From the IMG/VR virus record IMGVR_UViG_3300001242_000019, positions 53,366 to 117,365 of that record: a stretch of DNA of 64,000 bases; one strand, written 5' to 3'. Shown here piece after piece: positions 39,323 to 53,367 of the stretch (positions are counted from its first letter, which is position 1; each line of letters starts with the position of its first letter). Position numbers and translations under genes: made by a program. Source of the DNA: a virus. The notes beneath the pieces were generated by a model that ran no database searches, was not told where the DNA came from, and saw only the letters and a list, made by a program, of their open reading frames with translations.

Positions 39323-39490
39323 TGGGGTGATCGACGAGAATTGAACTCGCAACTCTGCCACAGGTCTTCTTAAAGTACGTATTGCTTTCACAACCGTCAT
39401 GTCAAGCCATGTTAGGTAGCGATCCTATCACGTTCCTCCTGACTATCAGCTTTCTGCAAGACAGCTTCTACCGATTGAAATACGATCACC
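39323..39490 (-). tRNA. Interrupted tRNA gene (His-like ends, ~90-base insert)
   Basis: Including encoded CCA the gene is 168 bases. Ends pair as G-1:C73 plus GTGATCG/CGATCAC, a histidine-tRNA hallmark. The T arm GCGAG-TTCAATT-CTCGT and a D arm TTTC/GAAG are present. CTGTC pairs with GGCAG as an anticodon stem, with AGTT as variable loop, but about 90 bases lie between them. That insert contains TTGTGAA, a perfect His anticodon loop sequence, though without a matching stem. The insert boundary is unknown. Confidence 0.65.
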
Positions 39491-40085: not shown

Positions 40086-40246
40086 CGGCAAGGGAAAGAT
40101 TCGAACTTTCGAACATCACTCGTAGATAGTTTAGAGCTCAGTACCGGTTGCTGGGAAATAGTTTTGACGATCATAAACTTCCTCCGTCTAGACCTTTAAC
40201 TATCGTATCCCTTGACTAGCGCCTTCAACCGCTCGGCCACCTCGCC
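40086..40246 (-). tRNA. Interrupted tRNA-Ser-like gene (~70-base insert)
   Basis: GGCGAGG pairs with CCTTGCC, G73 follows. D arm (GCC-GAGCGGTTGAA-GGC) and T arm (GAAAG-TTCGAAT-CTTTC) are of the Ser type, and CGAGTGATGTTCG suits a long variable arm. The 161-base gene is about 70 bases too long. GATAGTT ... AACTATC can pair around the insert, which holds a GACG/CGTC hairpin with the loop GGAAGTTTATG. The anticodon cannot be assigned. Confidence 0.65.
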
Positions 40247-40529: not shown

Positions 40530-40649
40530 TGGCACCGAGGACGGGATTTGAACCCGCCTATTACGTTTACCGCTCCCCATAGAAGATTACATCTCTTTAC
40601 AGCGGAGAGGCGCGCCGGATACGCTCCCTAACCACTTGGGTACCTCGGT
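40530..40649 (-). tRNA. Enlarged tRNA gene (possible Arg CCG or class II)
   Basis: ACCGAGG pairs with CCTCGGT, followed by G73 and encoded CCA. D arm CCC-AAGTGGTTA-GGG and T arm GCGGG-TTCAAAT-CCCGT are sound. After the D arm, GCGT-ATCCGGC-GCGC would be an anticodon arm with CCG. About 50 bases including a CCGCT/AGCGG hairpin then fill the variable region, too long for any standard tRNA. A CTGTAAA (Tyr-like) sequence also occurs in the insert. Confidence 0.65.
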
Positions 40650-40855: not shown

Positions 40856-40930
40856 TGGATTCTGTTGCGAGAATCGAACTCGCCCTTCACTGCCTGGTAG
40901 CAGGGCGTGCGTCCGTACACCAATAGAATC
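40856..40930 (-). tRNA. tRNA-like gene with odd anticodon arm
   Basis: Acceptor GATTCT/AGAATC and T arm GCGAG-TTCGATT-CTCGC are clear, D arm GTG-TACGGACG-CAC. The anticodon arm CTGC-TACCAG-GCAG has only a six-base loop; ACC would be the anticodon if standard. It lies head-to-tail with the previous gene, five bases apart. Confidence 0.65.
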
Positions 40931-42301: not shown

Positions 42302-42383
42302 TGGGCAGGGCAAAGGGATTCGAACCCCTGATAGCGATCATAAACTTCCTTCGCTCGTTTTAAACCACTAAACTATACCCCGC
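42302..42383 (-). tRNA. tRNA-like gene with 13-base anticodon loop
   Basis: Acceptor CGGGGTA/TGCCCTG with G-1:C73 and encoded CCA (His-like). D arm GTTT-AGTGGTTTA-AAAC and T arm AGGGG-TTCGAAT-CCCTT are clear. The anticodon stem AGCGA/TCGCT closes a 13-base loop, AGGAAGTTTATGA, containing the 11-base motif found in three other RNAs of the island. No His anticodon is visible. Confidence 0.65.
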
Positions 42384-42399
42384 ATGAGAATAATATTGT

Positions 42400-42592
42400 A
42401 GCGGATAGAAGGGCTCGAACCCCCAACCGTATATAAGCTACTTATATGCTTTCGTCCGGACTAATCACATACTCCTCACTTATACAGTTAATCTCCAAAG
42501 AATTACTTTATTCATGTGATCAACATGGTTTATATAACTCCGTAATTAACCGCTATCTCTCGATAGCCGCTCTACCATTGAGCTATATCCGC
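42400..42592 (-). tRNA. Interrupted tRNA gene (~118-base insert)
   Basis: Acceptor GCGGATA/TATCCGC, D arm GCTC-AATGGTA-GAGC and T arm GGGGG-TTCGAGC-CCTTC are clear. After the D arm comes GCTATC-GAGA-GATAGC, a tetraloop hairpin instead of an anticodon arm, then about 110 bases with further stems (ATCACAT/ATGTGAT; ATATAAG-TAG-CTTATAT). The 193-base total is far above normal. No group I intron core was recognised. Confidence 0.65.
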
Positions 42593-42601
42593 AAAATTAG
42601 C

Positions 42602-43058
42602 TGGCGGACCCGACGGGGAGCCGCCCCCCGTGTCCAGAATGTCTACCCTTTGTCCCTGTTACTACTGAGAAATCTGAGTGTCTAACCTACTGGAATTGCA
42701 ACCAGCGCTTATTAAACCCTCGCCTCCACCACCTGCATTATACGATGCAGGAAACATGCGTTAATAGACGGGACTCGAACCCGCACGGGACTTTCGTCTT
42801 CCACATTTGCATGCAGCCATAGTTAATTCTTTGACCTCGCTTTATTTCAAGCGTGCGTATGCCAACTTCGCCACTATTAACTACCCAGTCTTCGACCTTC
42901 AGGAGTCGTTGGGTACTCTCCGTTTTAGGGCTGTAGTTCCTAATTAATTAAAATTAGGCAGCGTTTTTCATAGGTGTAGCATTTGCTTTAATGTCGTCTT
43001 TCCGACTGTCATCTCAGAGGACATACTCTATTCACCCTGTCGAAACTAACTCGGGCCC
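42602..43058 (-). ncRNA. ssrA: tmRNA (ssrA), interrupted by a tRNA gene
   Basis: The 5' end GGGCCCG...TTAGTTTCGACAGGGTG matches the tmRNA start consensus, and the 3' end CGGGTCC-G-CCA pairs with it. The tag frame at 42954-42986 (minus) reads GCA AAT GCT ACA CCT ATG AAA AAC GCT GCC TAA, giving ANATPMKNAA after the tRNA-borne alanine. Pseudoknot-like stems follow. A 123-base tRNA gene (42759-42881) lies inside; without it the RNA is 334 bases, a normal tmRNA size. The T loop reads GGCGGCT instead of TTCRANY. It would rescue stalled ribosomes and tag proteins. Confidence 0.85.
42759..42881 (-). tRNA. Enlarged Leu-like tRNA nested inside the tmRNA gene
   Basis: GTTAATA pairs with TATTAAC, T arm GCGGG-TTCGAGT-CCCGT, and a Leu-type D arm (GGCGAAGTTGGCATACGC). 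The middle has CGCTT-GAAATA-AAGCG, a 6-base loop, then about 35 extra bases before a GGA...TCC variable arm. The 123-base gene starts right after the TACCCA/TGGGTA pseudoknot stem of the tmRNA. Confidence 0.7.
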
Positions 43059-43074
43059 ATAATTCAGTGAGTTT

Positions 43075-43162
43075 CCTCACTAAGGAGAATACCAGATAAG
43101 GAGTGGGGTAATGACTCCTTAAACCATAAAGGGTAATGGCTCTGATATTCTATTTAGTGAGG
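43075..43162 (-). ncRNA. 88-base three-way-junction RNA with twin loops
   Basis: CCTCACTAA (43075) pairs with TTAGTGAGG (43162), extended by AGAATA/TATTCT and CAGA/TCTG. Inside are two hairpins, TAAGGAGT/ACTCCTTA and CCAT/ATGG, whose loops both carry GGGTAATG (CATTACCC on the minus strand). It lies between a small gene and the tmRNA, so it may be a processed leader, terminator or small RNA. Confidence 0.6.
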
Positions 43163-43171
43163 ATATCATCA

Positions 43172-43390
43172 CTAAGATCGTCTAAACAATCTAGCAAACC
43201 ATGATAACCTCTTAGGTTTAATAATTGGCACTGGATAGACCTCTCTAGGAGAAGTTGCTATAAAATGACCACATCGTAAGCAACTCCATCCCGTTGGATG
43301 AAATACTTTACTATCGATAAGGATCGTGATGTTATTTAGTGTCGCTTGGGTAAAAGAAGAGCATTCATTTGGACATTTCTCATTTACCAT
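43172..43390 (-). CDS. Small Cys-containing protein
   Basis: A 72-residue protein with CPNEC and CLRCGH, a possible zinc site, and a basic end (RLSWFARLFRRS). ATG 43390 overlaps the upstream stop. Confidence 0.65.
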   Translation of the reverse strand: MVNEKCPNECSSFTQATLNNITILIDSKVFHPTGWSCLRCGHFIATSPREVYPVPIIKPKRLSWFARLFRRS

Positions 43391-43869: not shown

Positions 43870-44665
43870 AGGCTAGTTGTAATCGCCACAATTAGCTATA
43901 AAGACGAACGCTAGTAGGCCAGCGTCTTGCACAATAGGCGGCGTTTCAACCCGCTTCCCGCCGCAAGGGTTTCATATAAGCATCTTCCATCCACTTTAGC
44001 TCCATGTGGATCTTATTCGCATGCCCGTCGCGCCGGTAATTGTGCGCCGCGTGGCCTGGTGTTTCAACTCACTCTAACACCTGTGAGTTTATCTTCGGCT
44101 ATTTTCAACCCTATTTCATCAGCCCTTCGGGTTATGCGGTATGGTCTTGGCGTTTTCAACTACTCTCAACGCCTACGTAGTTCTCACATCATCTTCATTA
44201 AGCGTCTCAGCCCGTCTCACGCCTATATCAAATCGGGCTTATCCATAATAAATAACGATAATAGTACTACTCTAAATCTATAGGGCCGTAAGCTTCCTCC
44301 CATATAAATTATACCAACTGTAGTAATATTCTTATAACATGTACTTAGCGTTCCCAGCTAAGCACCCTGGATCTAGAAATACTCCTAGATCACTACTATT
44401 AACTGGAATTTCATGATGTATTTAGCCTTGCAATAGCCTTATACTAGAATTTCCAGAAACGACCGCCTCCACATTACTAATCAAACTTAAGTCGAGGTAC
44501 GTCCATTCCAGACACCCTTAAGCATGATAGCGATCGACATCCACTCCTGTACCGGAGGAGCTACATGTTACGTTTAGTGATTTATTACTTCACTAACCTC
44601 AACGCCAAGAATCATAAATATCAGATCGTCATCCGATAGATCAATCCAGTGGCGCTGAAGTTAAC
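43870..44665 (-). ncRNA. Very large structured RNA (GOLLD/ROOL-like candidate)
   Basis: About 790 bases without a credible gene, between a promoter element (44680-44708) and a strong terminator. The minus strand folds into many hairpins; three modules end in nearly the same purine-rich linker: AGTTGAAAACGCC, AGTTGAAACACC and GGTTGAAACGCCGCC. Size, dense structure and location beside phage tRNAs resemble the GOLLD and ROOL RNA classes, which occur in phages and assemble into multimeric particles. I cannot assign the class without a covariance-model search. Confidence 0.7.
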
Positions 44666-44789: not shown

Positions 44790-44858
44790 GATGCATTGCT
44801 GGACTCGAACCAGCACTCAACGCGTCAACGTCAGCTCTGCCAATTAAGCTATCTGCAT
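44790..44858 (-). tRNA. tRNA-like gene, possible Val (GAC), short anticodon loop
   Basis: 69 bases. D arm GCTT-AATTGGCA-GAGC and T arm GCTGG-TTCGAGT-CCAGC are standard; acceptor ATGCA/TGCAT. The anticodon arm GACG-TTGACG-CGTT has a six-base loop reading GAC. Possible Val, unverified. Confidence 0.65.
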
Positions 44859-44864
44859 TTGAAT

Positions 44865-44934
44865 CATACAATACAAGGAGTCGAACCTTGTGCTCACCCT
44901 TACGGGGCAGCTCTACGCGTTAAGCTAATTGCAT
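44865..44934 (-). tRNA. tRNA-like gene with short anticodon loop
   Basis: 70 bases. Acceptor ATGCAAT/ATTGTAT, D arm GCTT-AACGCGTA-GAGC, T arm CAAGG-TTCGACT-CCTTG. The anticodon arm GCCC-CGTAA-GGGT has a five-base loop; GTA would be read if Tyr. The D loop lacks the GG pair. Confidence 0.6.
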
Positions 44935-44939
44935 GAAGT

Positions 44940-44985: not shown

Positions 44986-45260
44986 CACATGGAGTCCAGA
45001 GACTTACACTCTGGAATGTTTGGAGACTATTGCAAATTCGTCTCACTGGTGTGTTTTAGATCGAAGGTCATAACTCTAAGTTCTGGTTCCGTGGCACACC
45101 ACCCATTCACGGACCAAGATCGGAATACCTTTACGTGTATAGCTAACACACAACCGATACCTTTAACGTCTTTTAGTTATTATTAATTATCACAAGACAT
45201 AAACTTCCTCTTGTGTGCTTAATCCCGACCATAGCCTATCATAAAGCCGATAATTAAATA
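44985..45260 (-). ncRNA. Structured RNA candidate with 11-base loop hairpin
   Basis: No ORF. Minus-strand stems: CACAAGA/TCTTGTG with loop GGAAGTTTATG (45190s), TCCGTG/CACGGA, GAGAC/GTCTC, CCAGAG/CTCTGG, and distant GTGTGT/ACACAC. The first hairpin is the same as in three tRNA-like genes. Class unknown. Confidence 0.5.
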
Positions 45261-45274
45261 TAACTCGTATTCCG

Positions 45275-45866
45275 TCACTCCATATAACTTTACCATCGCT
45301 TTACTCTACTGTACCGCTACCCTACACCACTTCGCCTTGCCGTTACTCTACTCTACCATACCGTTACATTACCCCTCGTTGCGTTACCTTTGCACTACCC
45401 TGCTGTACCGTTGCACTACTTTTCCTTACCACAACCGTACTTTACCACGCCTTGACGCGACTATACCCTACGCTACTTTACCATGACTGAACACTACCGC
45501 GCCTCGCCTTACCATAACATTACAGTACCATACCCTACTTTACCTTGACGCAACAGTATTCTACTTTACCTTTACACACACAGTACAATAATTCACAACA
45601 CCATACCATGACGGAACACCACTAGGCTAGGCCTTACCACTGCAATACCCTGCTTAACTTCACTCCACCGCAACTTTACCCTACCCTACTTCACCGCTAC
45701 GCTACCTTACTTCGCCATTACGTTACCATGCTGTACCATTACAGGACTGGGCTAGACTCTACCATAACATCACTTCGCTTTGCCTTACCGTGACTGAACC
45801 TAACCCTACAATCACGAGACAACACCGAGCCTCACTTTGCCATAACCCCGCTCAACTATACCATTA
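45275..45866. repeat. Pentamer-periodic region, about 590 bases
   Basis: The minus strand repeats degenerate five-base units of the form GTNNN or GCNNN (for example GGTAG CGTAG CGGTG AAGTA GGGTA), with some slips in phase; the plus strand shows TTACC, CTACC, GTACC and so on. It fills the whole stretch between the RNA island and the stop codon of the 45864 gene and encodes nothing recognised. Possible roles are protein-array binding, origin or structural RNA. Confidence 0.8.
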
Positions 45867-46499
45867 CTTTGCTGTGGCTAATACTGTTTGAGAAATCGAC
45901 TCAATAACAGTAAAGCTGTTAACTTTAAACTGTCCAAAACTACCATTCCGGAATTGGCCTAAACCCTTAAGTTCTCCGAAGTTAAGGATCTCTTTAATCG
46001 TATCACTCGTAATTTCCTTATGGTTTACCAGTGTGATATCGAAAGATAATTTTGCACCAGCATGAACAACATCACTCTTGGCTAGTGTTACTCGTGGACC
46101 CTGCGCGGTCATAGCCCGTAATGGTCGCTCGAAAACTGAATCACATTTCATGATATTAACGCCATTGCGGACAAATCGAATCTTGCGAGGCGTCACAAAG
46201 ATGAAGTTTTCAAGCTTAGATTTAAGATTCTTAATCTTAAGTTGATCCTTTAGATTGTTACCGGCATCACGCAGAAAACCAAGTATCATGTAATTATAGA
46301 TAAATAAGCCATCTTCGTCTTCCATAAACGTTGTCCATCCGGAAGTATCGTCTTCAACGATATTCTGAGCTTCTTCGGCAGCTACTTCGGGTATCACTTT
46401 AGTGGCTATATATTTTGTATAAACGTCACGATTCTTTGGAACAGTTCCTAGTTGATCTTCAAGCAGCTCAATTTCTACTTTCATTACGGTCTTTTCCAA
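45864..46499 (-). CDS. Conserved phage protein with glycine-rich GLGQFRNG motif
   Basis: A 211-residue protein with LEDQLGTVPKNRDVY, IYNYMILGFLRDAG, FVTPRKIRF, RPLRAMTAQGPRVTLAKSD and GLGQFRNGSFGQF. I recall this order of blocks from a family in Bacillota phages. The glycine-rich end resembles the loop of RAMP-fold RNA-binding proteins, but that is inference. TTG 46499 follows GGAG by 7 bases; an ATG five codons in is possible. Confidence 0.75.
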   Translation of the reverse strand: MEKTVMKVEIELLEDQLGTVPKNRDVYTKYIATKVIPEVAAEEAQNIVEDDTSGWTTFMEDEDGLFIYNYMILGFLRDAGNNLKDQLKIKNLKSKLENFIFVTPRKIRFVRNGVNIMKCDSVFERPLRAMTAQGPRVTLAKSDVVHAGAKLSFDITLVNHKEITSDTIKEILNFGELKGLGQFRNGSFGQFKVNSFTVIESISQTVLATAK

Positions 46500-53297: not shown

Positions 53298-53367
53298 ATA
53301 GCCATGTGAGGATCAAACTCACGCATCACCGTTATTAACGGGACTCTATTCACTGAGCTAATGGCTA
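53298..53367 (-). tRNA. Degenerate tRNA-like gene
   Basis: 70 bases. Acceptor TAGCCAT/ATGGCTA and T arm GTGAG-TTTGATC-CTCAC are perfect, D arm GCTC-AGTGAATA-GAGT. The D loop lacks GG and the T loop has T in place of C56, which normally pairs with G19. The anticodon arm is CCGTT-AAT-AACGG (3-base loop), or CCG-TTAATAA-CGG with a canonical loop reading AAT. It may be a tRNA-like decoy or a decaying gene. Confidence 0.6.

Follow-up and report, generated by a model that had tools for sequence, protein, structure and literature searches.

The analysed window, 64 kb long, forms the end of virus record IMGVR_UViG_3300001242_000019 (117,365 bases) and contains a putative gene for transfer-messenger RNA (tmRNA) in standard order, which appears to be interrupted by the body of a tRNA. 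The tmRNA, which frees stuck ribosomes, is nearly universal in bacteria. The tmRNA locus, the inner tRNA and the tRNA-like genes clustered around them all lie on the minus strand, and coordinates are given in window numbering. The elements recognised within the tmRNA locus are as follows:

42602-43058, minus strand: putative tmRNA gene in standard order, interrupted by a tRNA body, 457 nt including the encoded CCA
43052-43058, minus strand: 5′ strand of the acceptor stem, GGGCCCG, pairing at 7/7 positions with 42606-42612, G3-U70 included
43035-43045, minus strand: TTTCGACAGGG, the 5′ block of the tRNA-like domain, read directly and matching the RF00023 5′ end as in Bacillus phage G
42954-42986, minus strand: tag frame ANATPMKNAA and TAA, with the stop within a helix-5-like hairpin
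42882-42921, minus strand: pseudoknot 2 (PK2), a pseudoknot-type element with GGAG/CTCC and TACCCA/TGGGTA pairings, proposed from the sequence; the inner tRNA begins at the next base
42759-42881, minus strand: nested tRNA body with Leu-like D and T arms and G-1/C73, from an Rfam tRNA match, an arm scan and folds
42724-42751, minus strand: pseudoknot 3 (PK3)-like hairpin CCTGCAT/ATGCAGG, then GTGGTGGAG, common to the phage G tmRNA in the alignment
42613-42637, minus strand: CTGGAC and an aberrant T arm (6-bp stem ACGGGG/CCCCGT, loop GGCGGCT), read directly
42602-42612, minus strand: 3′ strand of the acceptor stem, CGGGTCC (42612-42606), discriminator G and CCA (42604-42602), read directly

Read along the minus strand, the locus opens with GGGCCCG, TTTCGACAGGG, one strand of helix 2, a short hairpin, AAAGCAAATGC and the tag with its TAA inside a hairpin, continues with the PK2-type element, the inner tRNA, the hairpin with GTGGTGGAG, more hairpins and the return strand of helix 2, and closes with CTGGAC, the T arm, CGGGTCC, G and CCA. 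An initial annotation had proposed a tmRNA on the basis of paired ends, a tag frame and a typical start block, and had noted a T loop of GGCGGCT; each of these was recovered: GGGCCCG (43058-43052) pairs fully with CGGGTCC, and includes the G3-U70 pair that is the alanine determinant, the start block is present at 43045-43035, the tag can be read at 42986-42954, and the T loop was found at 42625-42619 on a stem of 6 bp. The tag consists of 10 residues (GCA AAT GCT ACA CCT ATG AAA AAC GCT GCC TAA, with GCA as the resume codon), and the RF04321 alignment in this region spans AAAGCAAAUGCUACACC...GCUGCCUAA. Both the TTCGAC(A/G)GG block that follows the acceptor 5′ strand and the GGAC preceding the T arm (within 42637-42632) are present, as in phage G, and TTCGACAGGG occurs only once in the whole record. 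The expectation that a tmRNA of normal size would remain once the insert is taken out was borne out, with the length corrected from 334 to 333 nt.

The tmRNA of Bacillus phage G (NC_023719, 412060-412371), which gives a full Rfam match at 67.6 bits, was used for comparison. Local alignment with the window tmRNA lacking the insert gave a score of 426, against a mean of 256 (sd 19) for 500 shuffled sequences (z about 8.9); none of the 500 shuffles equalled this score, and the 5′ and 3′ halves each also exceeded 500/500 shuffles. A profile hidden Markov model built from 18 standard tmRNAs scored the full sequence at 16.6 bits and the sequence without insert at 12.0 bits, with 2.9 bits as the highest of 200 shuffles; the higher score of the full sequence is probably due to the inner T arm, which the model matches. 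Since both the phage G alignment and the model scores exceed those of the shuffles, we accept, from sequence comparison, that the locus is tmRNA-derived. The two tmRNAs share the standard order, the 5′ block, helix 5, GTGGTGGAG, CTGGAC and a location in a tRNA cluster, whereas the phage G tmRNA lacks an inserted tRNA, has a canonical T arm and encodes another tag (AKLNITNNELQVA).

The inner tRNA occupies the linker between the PK2-type and PK3-type elements. In agreement with the proposal that the insert directly follows a pseudoknot stem, the PK2-type stem ends at 42882 and the insert starts at 42881. The phage G alignment passes this point without a counterpart of the insert, and phage G thus has the empty site. 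As pseudoknot-type elements persist on both flanks, the inner segment is not the usual tmRNA pseudoknot, which had been raised as the observation that would speak against a nested tRNA. The predicted minimum free energy structure of the whole RNA equals that of the RNA without insert plus a closed, independent inner domain. A standard-order phage tmRNA gene with a tRNA body in its pseudoknot linker is very likely a real arrangement.

The inner tRNA measures 120 nt from position 1 to position 72, with an expanded anticodon region, and has a 7-bp acceptor stem, a D arm and a T arm in cloverleaf order. The acceptor (GTTAATAG/CTATTAAC) reaches 8 bp when G-1/C73 is counted, the D arm (GTGGCGAAGTTGGCATACGCAC) is close to tRNA-Leu D arms of other phage contigs (such as GTGGCGGAATGGCAGACGCAC), and the T arm (GCGGGTTCGAGTCCCGT) is canonical, including its loop. 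Infernal with the Rfam tRNA model scored it at 27.4 bits (E 7e-5 in the 117-kb record), just below the gathering cut-off of 29. In an arm scan that required acceptor, D arm and T arm and ignored the intervening anticodon region, the minus strand of the window gave five matches, all between 39.3 and 42.9 kb and including the inner tRNA, where shuffled sequences lead one to expect 0.017 per strand. A cloverleaf-compatible fold lies within 2.9 kcal/mol of the minimum free energy. The acceptor, D and T arms of the tRNA-like gene described in the initial annotation at 42759-42881 are thus upheld, but its anticodon arm is irregular.

Several observations weigh against an active tmRNA carrying a tRNA. 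When the covariance search suggested as a check on the full locus was carried out with Infernal, no Rfam tmRNA family scored above its gathering threshold, as RF00023 reached 11.1 bits, restricted to the T arm of the inner tRNA, and RF04321 reached 21.8 bits versus a cut-off of 47; ARAGORN at default settings did not call the tmRNA either. The low Rfam scores are likely due to the aberrant T arm and the insert, and would also be compatible with a tmRNA that has decayed or been modified. In the tmRNA T arm, the stem has 6 bp rather than 5 and the loop is GGCGGCT in place of TTCGANT (the phage G counterpart is CTGGACGCGGGTTCGACTCCCGC), and the discriminator at position 73 is a G. EF-Tu binds the tRNA-like domain at its T arm (PMC4236655), so such a change could impair function. 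A regular anticodon arm (5-bp stem, 7-nt loop and U33) is missing from the inner tRNA, which displays instead a CGCUU-GAAAUA-AAGCG hairpin with a 6-nt loop and two extra hairpins, so that it may not be a decoding tRNA; no convincing spliced alternative for this arm was found. Finally, the locus is known from a single metagenomic contig without close relative in the viral collection. A blastn search among phages and a tmRNA-pattern search gave no match, two contigs with a related neighbour gene contained neither tRNAs nor tmRNA, and Moorella phage MTATph1 had no tmRNA above threshold.

We propose that a phage tmRNA in normal 5′-to-3′ order gained one of the tRNA-body genes of the surrounding cluster in its single-stranded PK2-PK3 linker. 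The transcript would most likely adopt a tmRNA fold in which the tRNA forms a closed domain of its own. Host RNase P would then cleave at about 42882/42881, ahead of the acceptor stem of the inner tRNA, and a cut behind the tRNA at about 42760/42759, by RNase Z or exonucleases, would release it. RNase P and RNase Z recognise mainly acceptor and T stems. What is left would be a non-permuted two-piece tmRNA, with a 5′ piece of about 177 nt containing the acceptor 5′ strand, tag and PK2, and a 3′ piece of about 157 nt containing PK3, helix 2, the T arm, the acceptor 3′ strand and CCA, held together by the 7-bp acceptor stem and helix 2. The proximity of the new ends to PK2 and PK3 should slow exonucleases. 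That RNase P and RNase Z would excise the tRNA and leave a functional two-piece product is an expectation from usual tRNA processing, and transcription, processing, ribosome rescue and tagging are all presumed here. Natural two-piece tmRNAs do function after tRNA enzymes have cut permuted transcripts (PMC11915505; PMC10085705), and an insert in the linker should be tolerated because pseudoknots 2-4 of tmRNA are interchangeable at little cost (review: PMC4236655). If the RNA is functional, the inner tRNA would probably be excised, while for the mechanism as a whole, from nested tRNA to two-piece non-permuted tmRNA, we consider the chances about even.

A recent survey of 97,179 tmRNAs (2025; PMC11915505) recognised three gene forms, namely standard, permuted, and those whose T loop carries a group I intron; none of these described forms has a tRNA inserted into the body of a standard-order tmRNA. 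As the initial annotation suggested, the proposed route to two pieces would differ from the circular permutation behind known two-piece tmRNAs. The order of 5′ block, tag and 3′ block differs from the permuted form (RF04321), in which the acceptor 3′ part comes first. In the permuted two-piece tmRNAs of Caulobacter and other alpha-proteobacteria, beta-proteobacteria and cyanobacteria, tRNA-processing enzymes likewise yield two base-paired pieces, but their genes are circularly permuted and a spacer is removed, whereas the present gene keeps the standard order and would be broken between two pseudoknots. The permuted tmRNA of the metagenome-assembled genome GCA-2688965 also contains an intact tRNA gene, in that case a tRNA-Ala within the spacer that is discarded anyway (PMC11915505), while the tRNA described here breaks the body of a non-permuted gene. 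Group I introns also interrupt standard-order tmRNA genes, at the T loop and with splicing and ligation, in contrast to a tRNA body in the pseudoknot linker, and no group I match was obtained for the insert. Outside tmRNA, the mitochondrial large subunit rRNA of Tetrahymena pyriformis, judging by a title cited in PMC10085705, has a tRNA gene between two segments of a discontinuous RNA, but is a mitochondrial rRNA with a rearranged order.

No other case of a tRNA within a standard-order tmRNA was found in the open-access literature, nor among about 189 ARAGORN tmRNA calls in viral contigs. Nine overlaps with tRNAs were listed; eight (contigs L063 and L107) reflect a tmRNA 3′ end followed by tRNAs with no TTCGAC block nearby, and in the ninth (L262) a permuted tmRNA encloses a single irregular tRNA call. 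Further nested cases may have been missed, since the survey rejected candidates overlapping tRNA hits of >42 bits unless these were permuted and strong (PMC11915505), and the locus thus exposes a blind spot created by the tRNA-overlap filter. If the proposed processing is correct, two-piece tmRNAs would have evolved along a second route; the nested tRNA also illustrates the modularity of the tmRNA ring. A broader interpretation, in which this is a fourth form of tmRNA gene with a nested tRNA that is cut out, within a cluster whose systematically rebuilt or expanded anticodon regions mark tRNA-shaped RNAs with other jobs, for instance as decoys or as tRNAs resistant to nucleases, is less likely than not.

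Alternatively, the tmRNA may be active as a one-piece RNA of about 457 nt that keeps the inner tRNA as an extra structural domain. Such retention would fit the predicted closed side domain with an unchanged remainder of the fold, the tolerance of tmRNA pseudoknot regions to change, and the irregular inner anticodon region, which may mean that the element is no processed, decoding tRNA; the stems read by RNase P and RNase Z are nevertheless intact, with an 8-bp acceptor and a canonical T loop, and we regard retention as unlikely. Equally unlikely is a tmRNA in decay or no longer able to rescue ribosomes, with the tRNA insertion and altered T arm reflecting relaxed selection. The aberrant T arm, G73 and sub-threshold Rfam scores would all be consistent with decay, as would the irregular arms of nearby tRNA-like genes, yet the seven acceptor pairs with G3-U70, the 5′ block, the tag frame and its stop, helix 2 and the encoded CCA are all intact.

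The remaining explanations are considerably less probable. A modified T arm could yield a dead-end complex, and the phage tmRNA might act as a decoy sequestering host SmpB or alanyl-tRNA synthetase, comparable to the tmRNA-like RNA without a tag in phage DS6A (PMC11915505); unlike the DS6A RNA, it retains a complete tag frame with stop, which makes a decoy very unlikely. Removal of the inner segment as an intron, with ligation of the flanks, has precedent in the T-loop group I introns of tmRNA, and phage G has RNA ligase and KptA genes, but the lack of a group I match, the location in the PK2-PK3 linker, the absence of matches to RNA ligase, KptA or RtcB in the 117-kb record and the exact coincidence of the insert borders with those of the tRNA render this highly improbable. 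Least probable of all is a chance assembly of features at a locus without any tmRNA, which would agree with the lack of an Rfam tmRNA match at threshold, but conflicts with a similarity to phage G that no shuffle reached for the whole or for either half, and with the correct order of 5′ block, tag, CTGGAC, acceptor and CCA.

The genes of the window are mostly on the minus strand, and include those for DNA polymerase III alpha, helicases, a RecA/UvsX-like recombinase, a RecJ-like exonuclease and dUTPase. The top relatives of the gene adjoining the RNA cluster (42015-40996) are in Bacillus phage G (37% identity) and Lysinibacillus phages, which points to a large phage with a distant relationship to phage G and a host that probably belongs to the Bacillota. 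No SmpB, RNA ligase, KptA or RtcB gene was matched in the 117-kb record, which is probably a fragment; phage G, by contrast, encodes KptA and RNA ligases.

The cluster surrounding the tmRNA, together with the sequence immediately upstream of it, contains the following further elements:

43059-43172, minus strand: very stable structured RNA immediately upstream of the tmRNA (fold z-score -6.67, 0/200 shuffles)
42401-42592, minus strand: next tRNA-like gene, 192 nt, 9 bases past the tmRNA CCA, with 7/7 acceptor pairs and intact D and T arms
39327-39489, 40087-40246, 40534-40649, 42306-42382 and 42401-42592, minus strand: tRNA-like genes with expanded or altered anticodon regions, acceptor and T arms intact and the D arm intact in most
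44866-44937, 44790-44859, 53298-53367 and 40856-40928, minus strand: four tRNA-like genes of near-normal length with predicted anticodon loops of 3-5 nt

The structured RNA at 43059-43172 was predicted to form two hairpins with ATTACCC in their loops on a long shared stem. In the arm scan, four genes besides the inner tRNA combined intact acceptor, D and T arms with altered anticodon regions and measured 77-192 nt overall; the anticodon region of the 42401-42592 gene is longer by about 115 nt. A fifth, similar gene is located at 40246-40087. The same scan in phage G gave regular lengths only, and the only regular-looking tRNA of the cluster is Lys(CTT). A spliced-tRNA model was clean only for the Cys-like gene at 39489-39327, where removal of 93 nt leaves the anticodon arm CTGTC-TTGCAGA-GGCAG with a 5-bp stem; as the other expanded genes give no clean spliced arm, introns are not claimed for the cluster, and no group I intron or other Rfam element was matched within the inserts. 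Introns, decoys and nuclease-resistant tRNAs are all candidate explanations for the irregular genes. Phage tRNAs have been proposed to evade host anticodon nucleases through altered anticodon loops (PMC10264068), although that proposal concerns loop mutations and not rebuilt arms. The irregular cluster raises the separate question of what phage tRNAs are for.

Other phages contained irregular tRNA-like sequences as well. Three sequences in phage G (L030:2369-2489, L030:2500-2620 and L029:8085-8232) lie among 17 regular tRNAs, look like the ends of tRNAs separated by long inserts, and were called by neither ARAGORN nor Rfam, while a 55-nt match across the whole tRNA model in Moorella phage MTATph1 (L316, 95128-95182, minus strand) represents a shortened tRNA-like gene. 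Within the window, the 12-nt sequence AGGAAGTTTATG forms the loop of three minus-strand hairpins with differing stems (40172-40183, 42339-42350 and 45198-45209), all in the RNA cluster and one replacing an anticodon loop, with no further exact copy in the window. The same strand also carries about 450 nt of structured non-coding sequence without Rfam match (43880-44330, z -2.9) and a separate stretch of some 580 nt made up of degenerate, G-rich repeats of the GGTAAAGTAGGGTAGCG kind (45287-45870).
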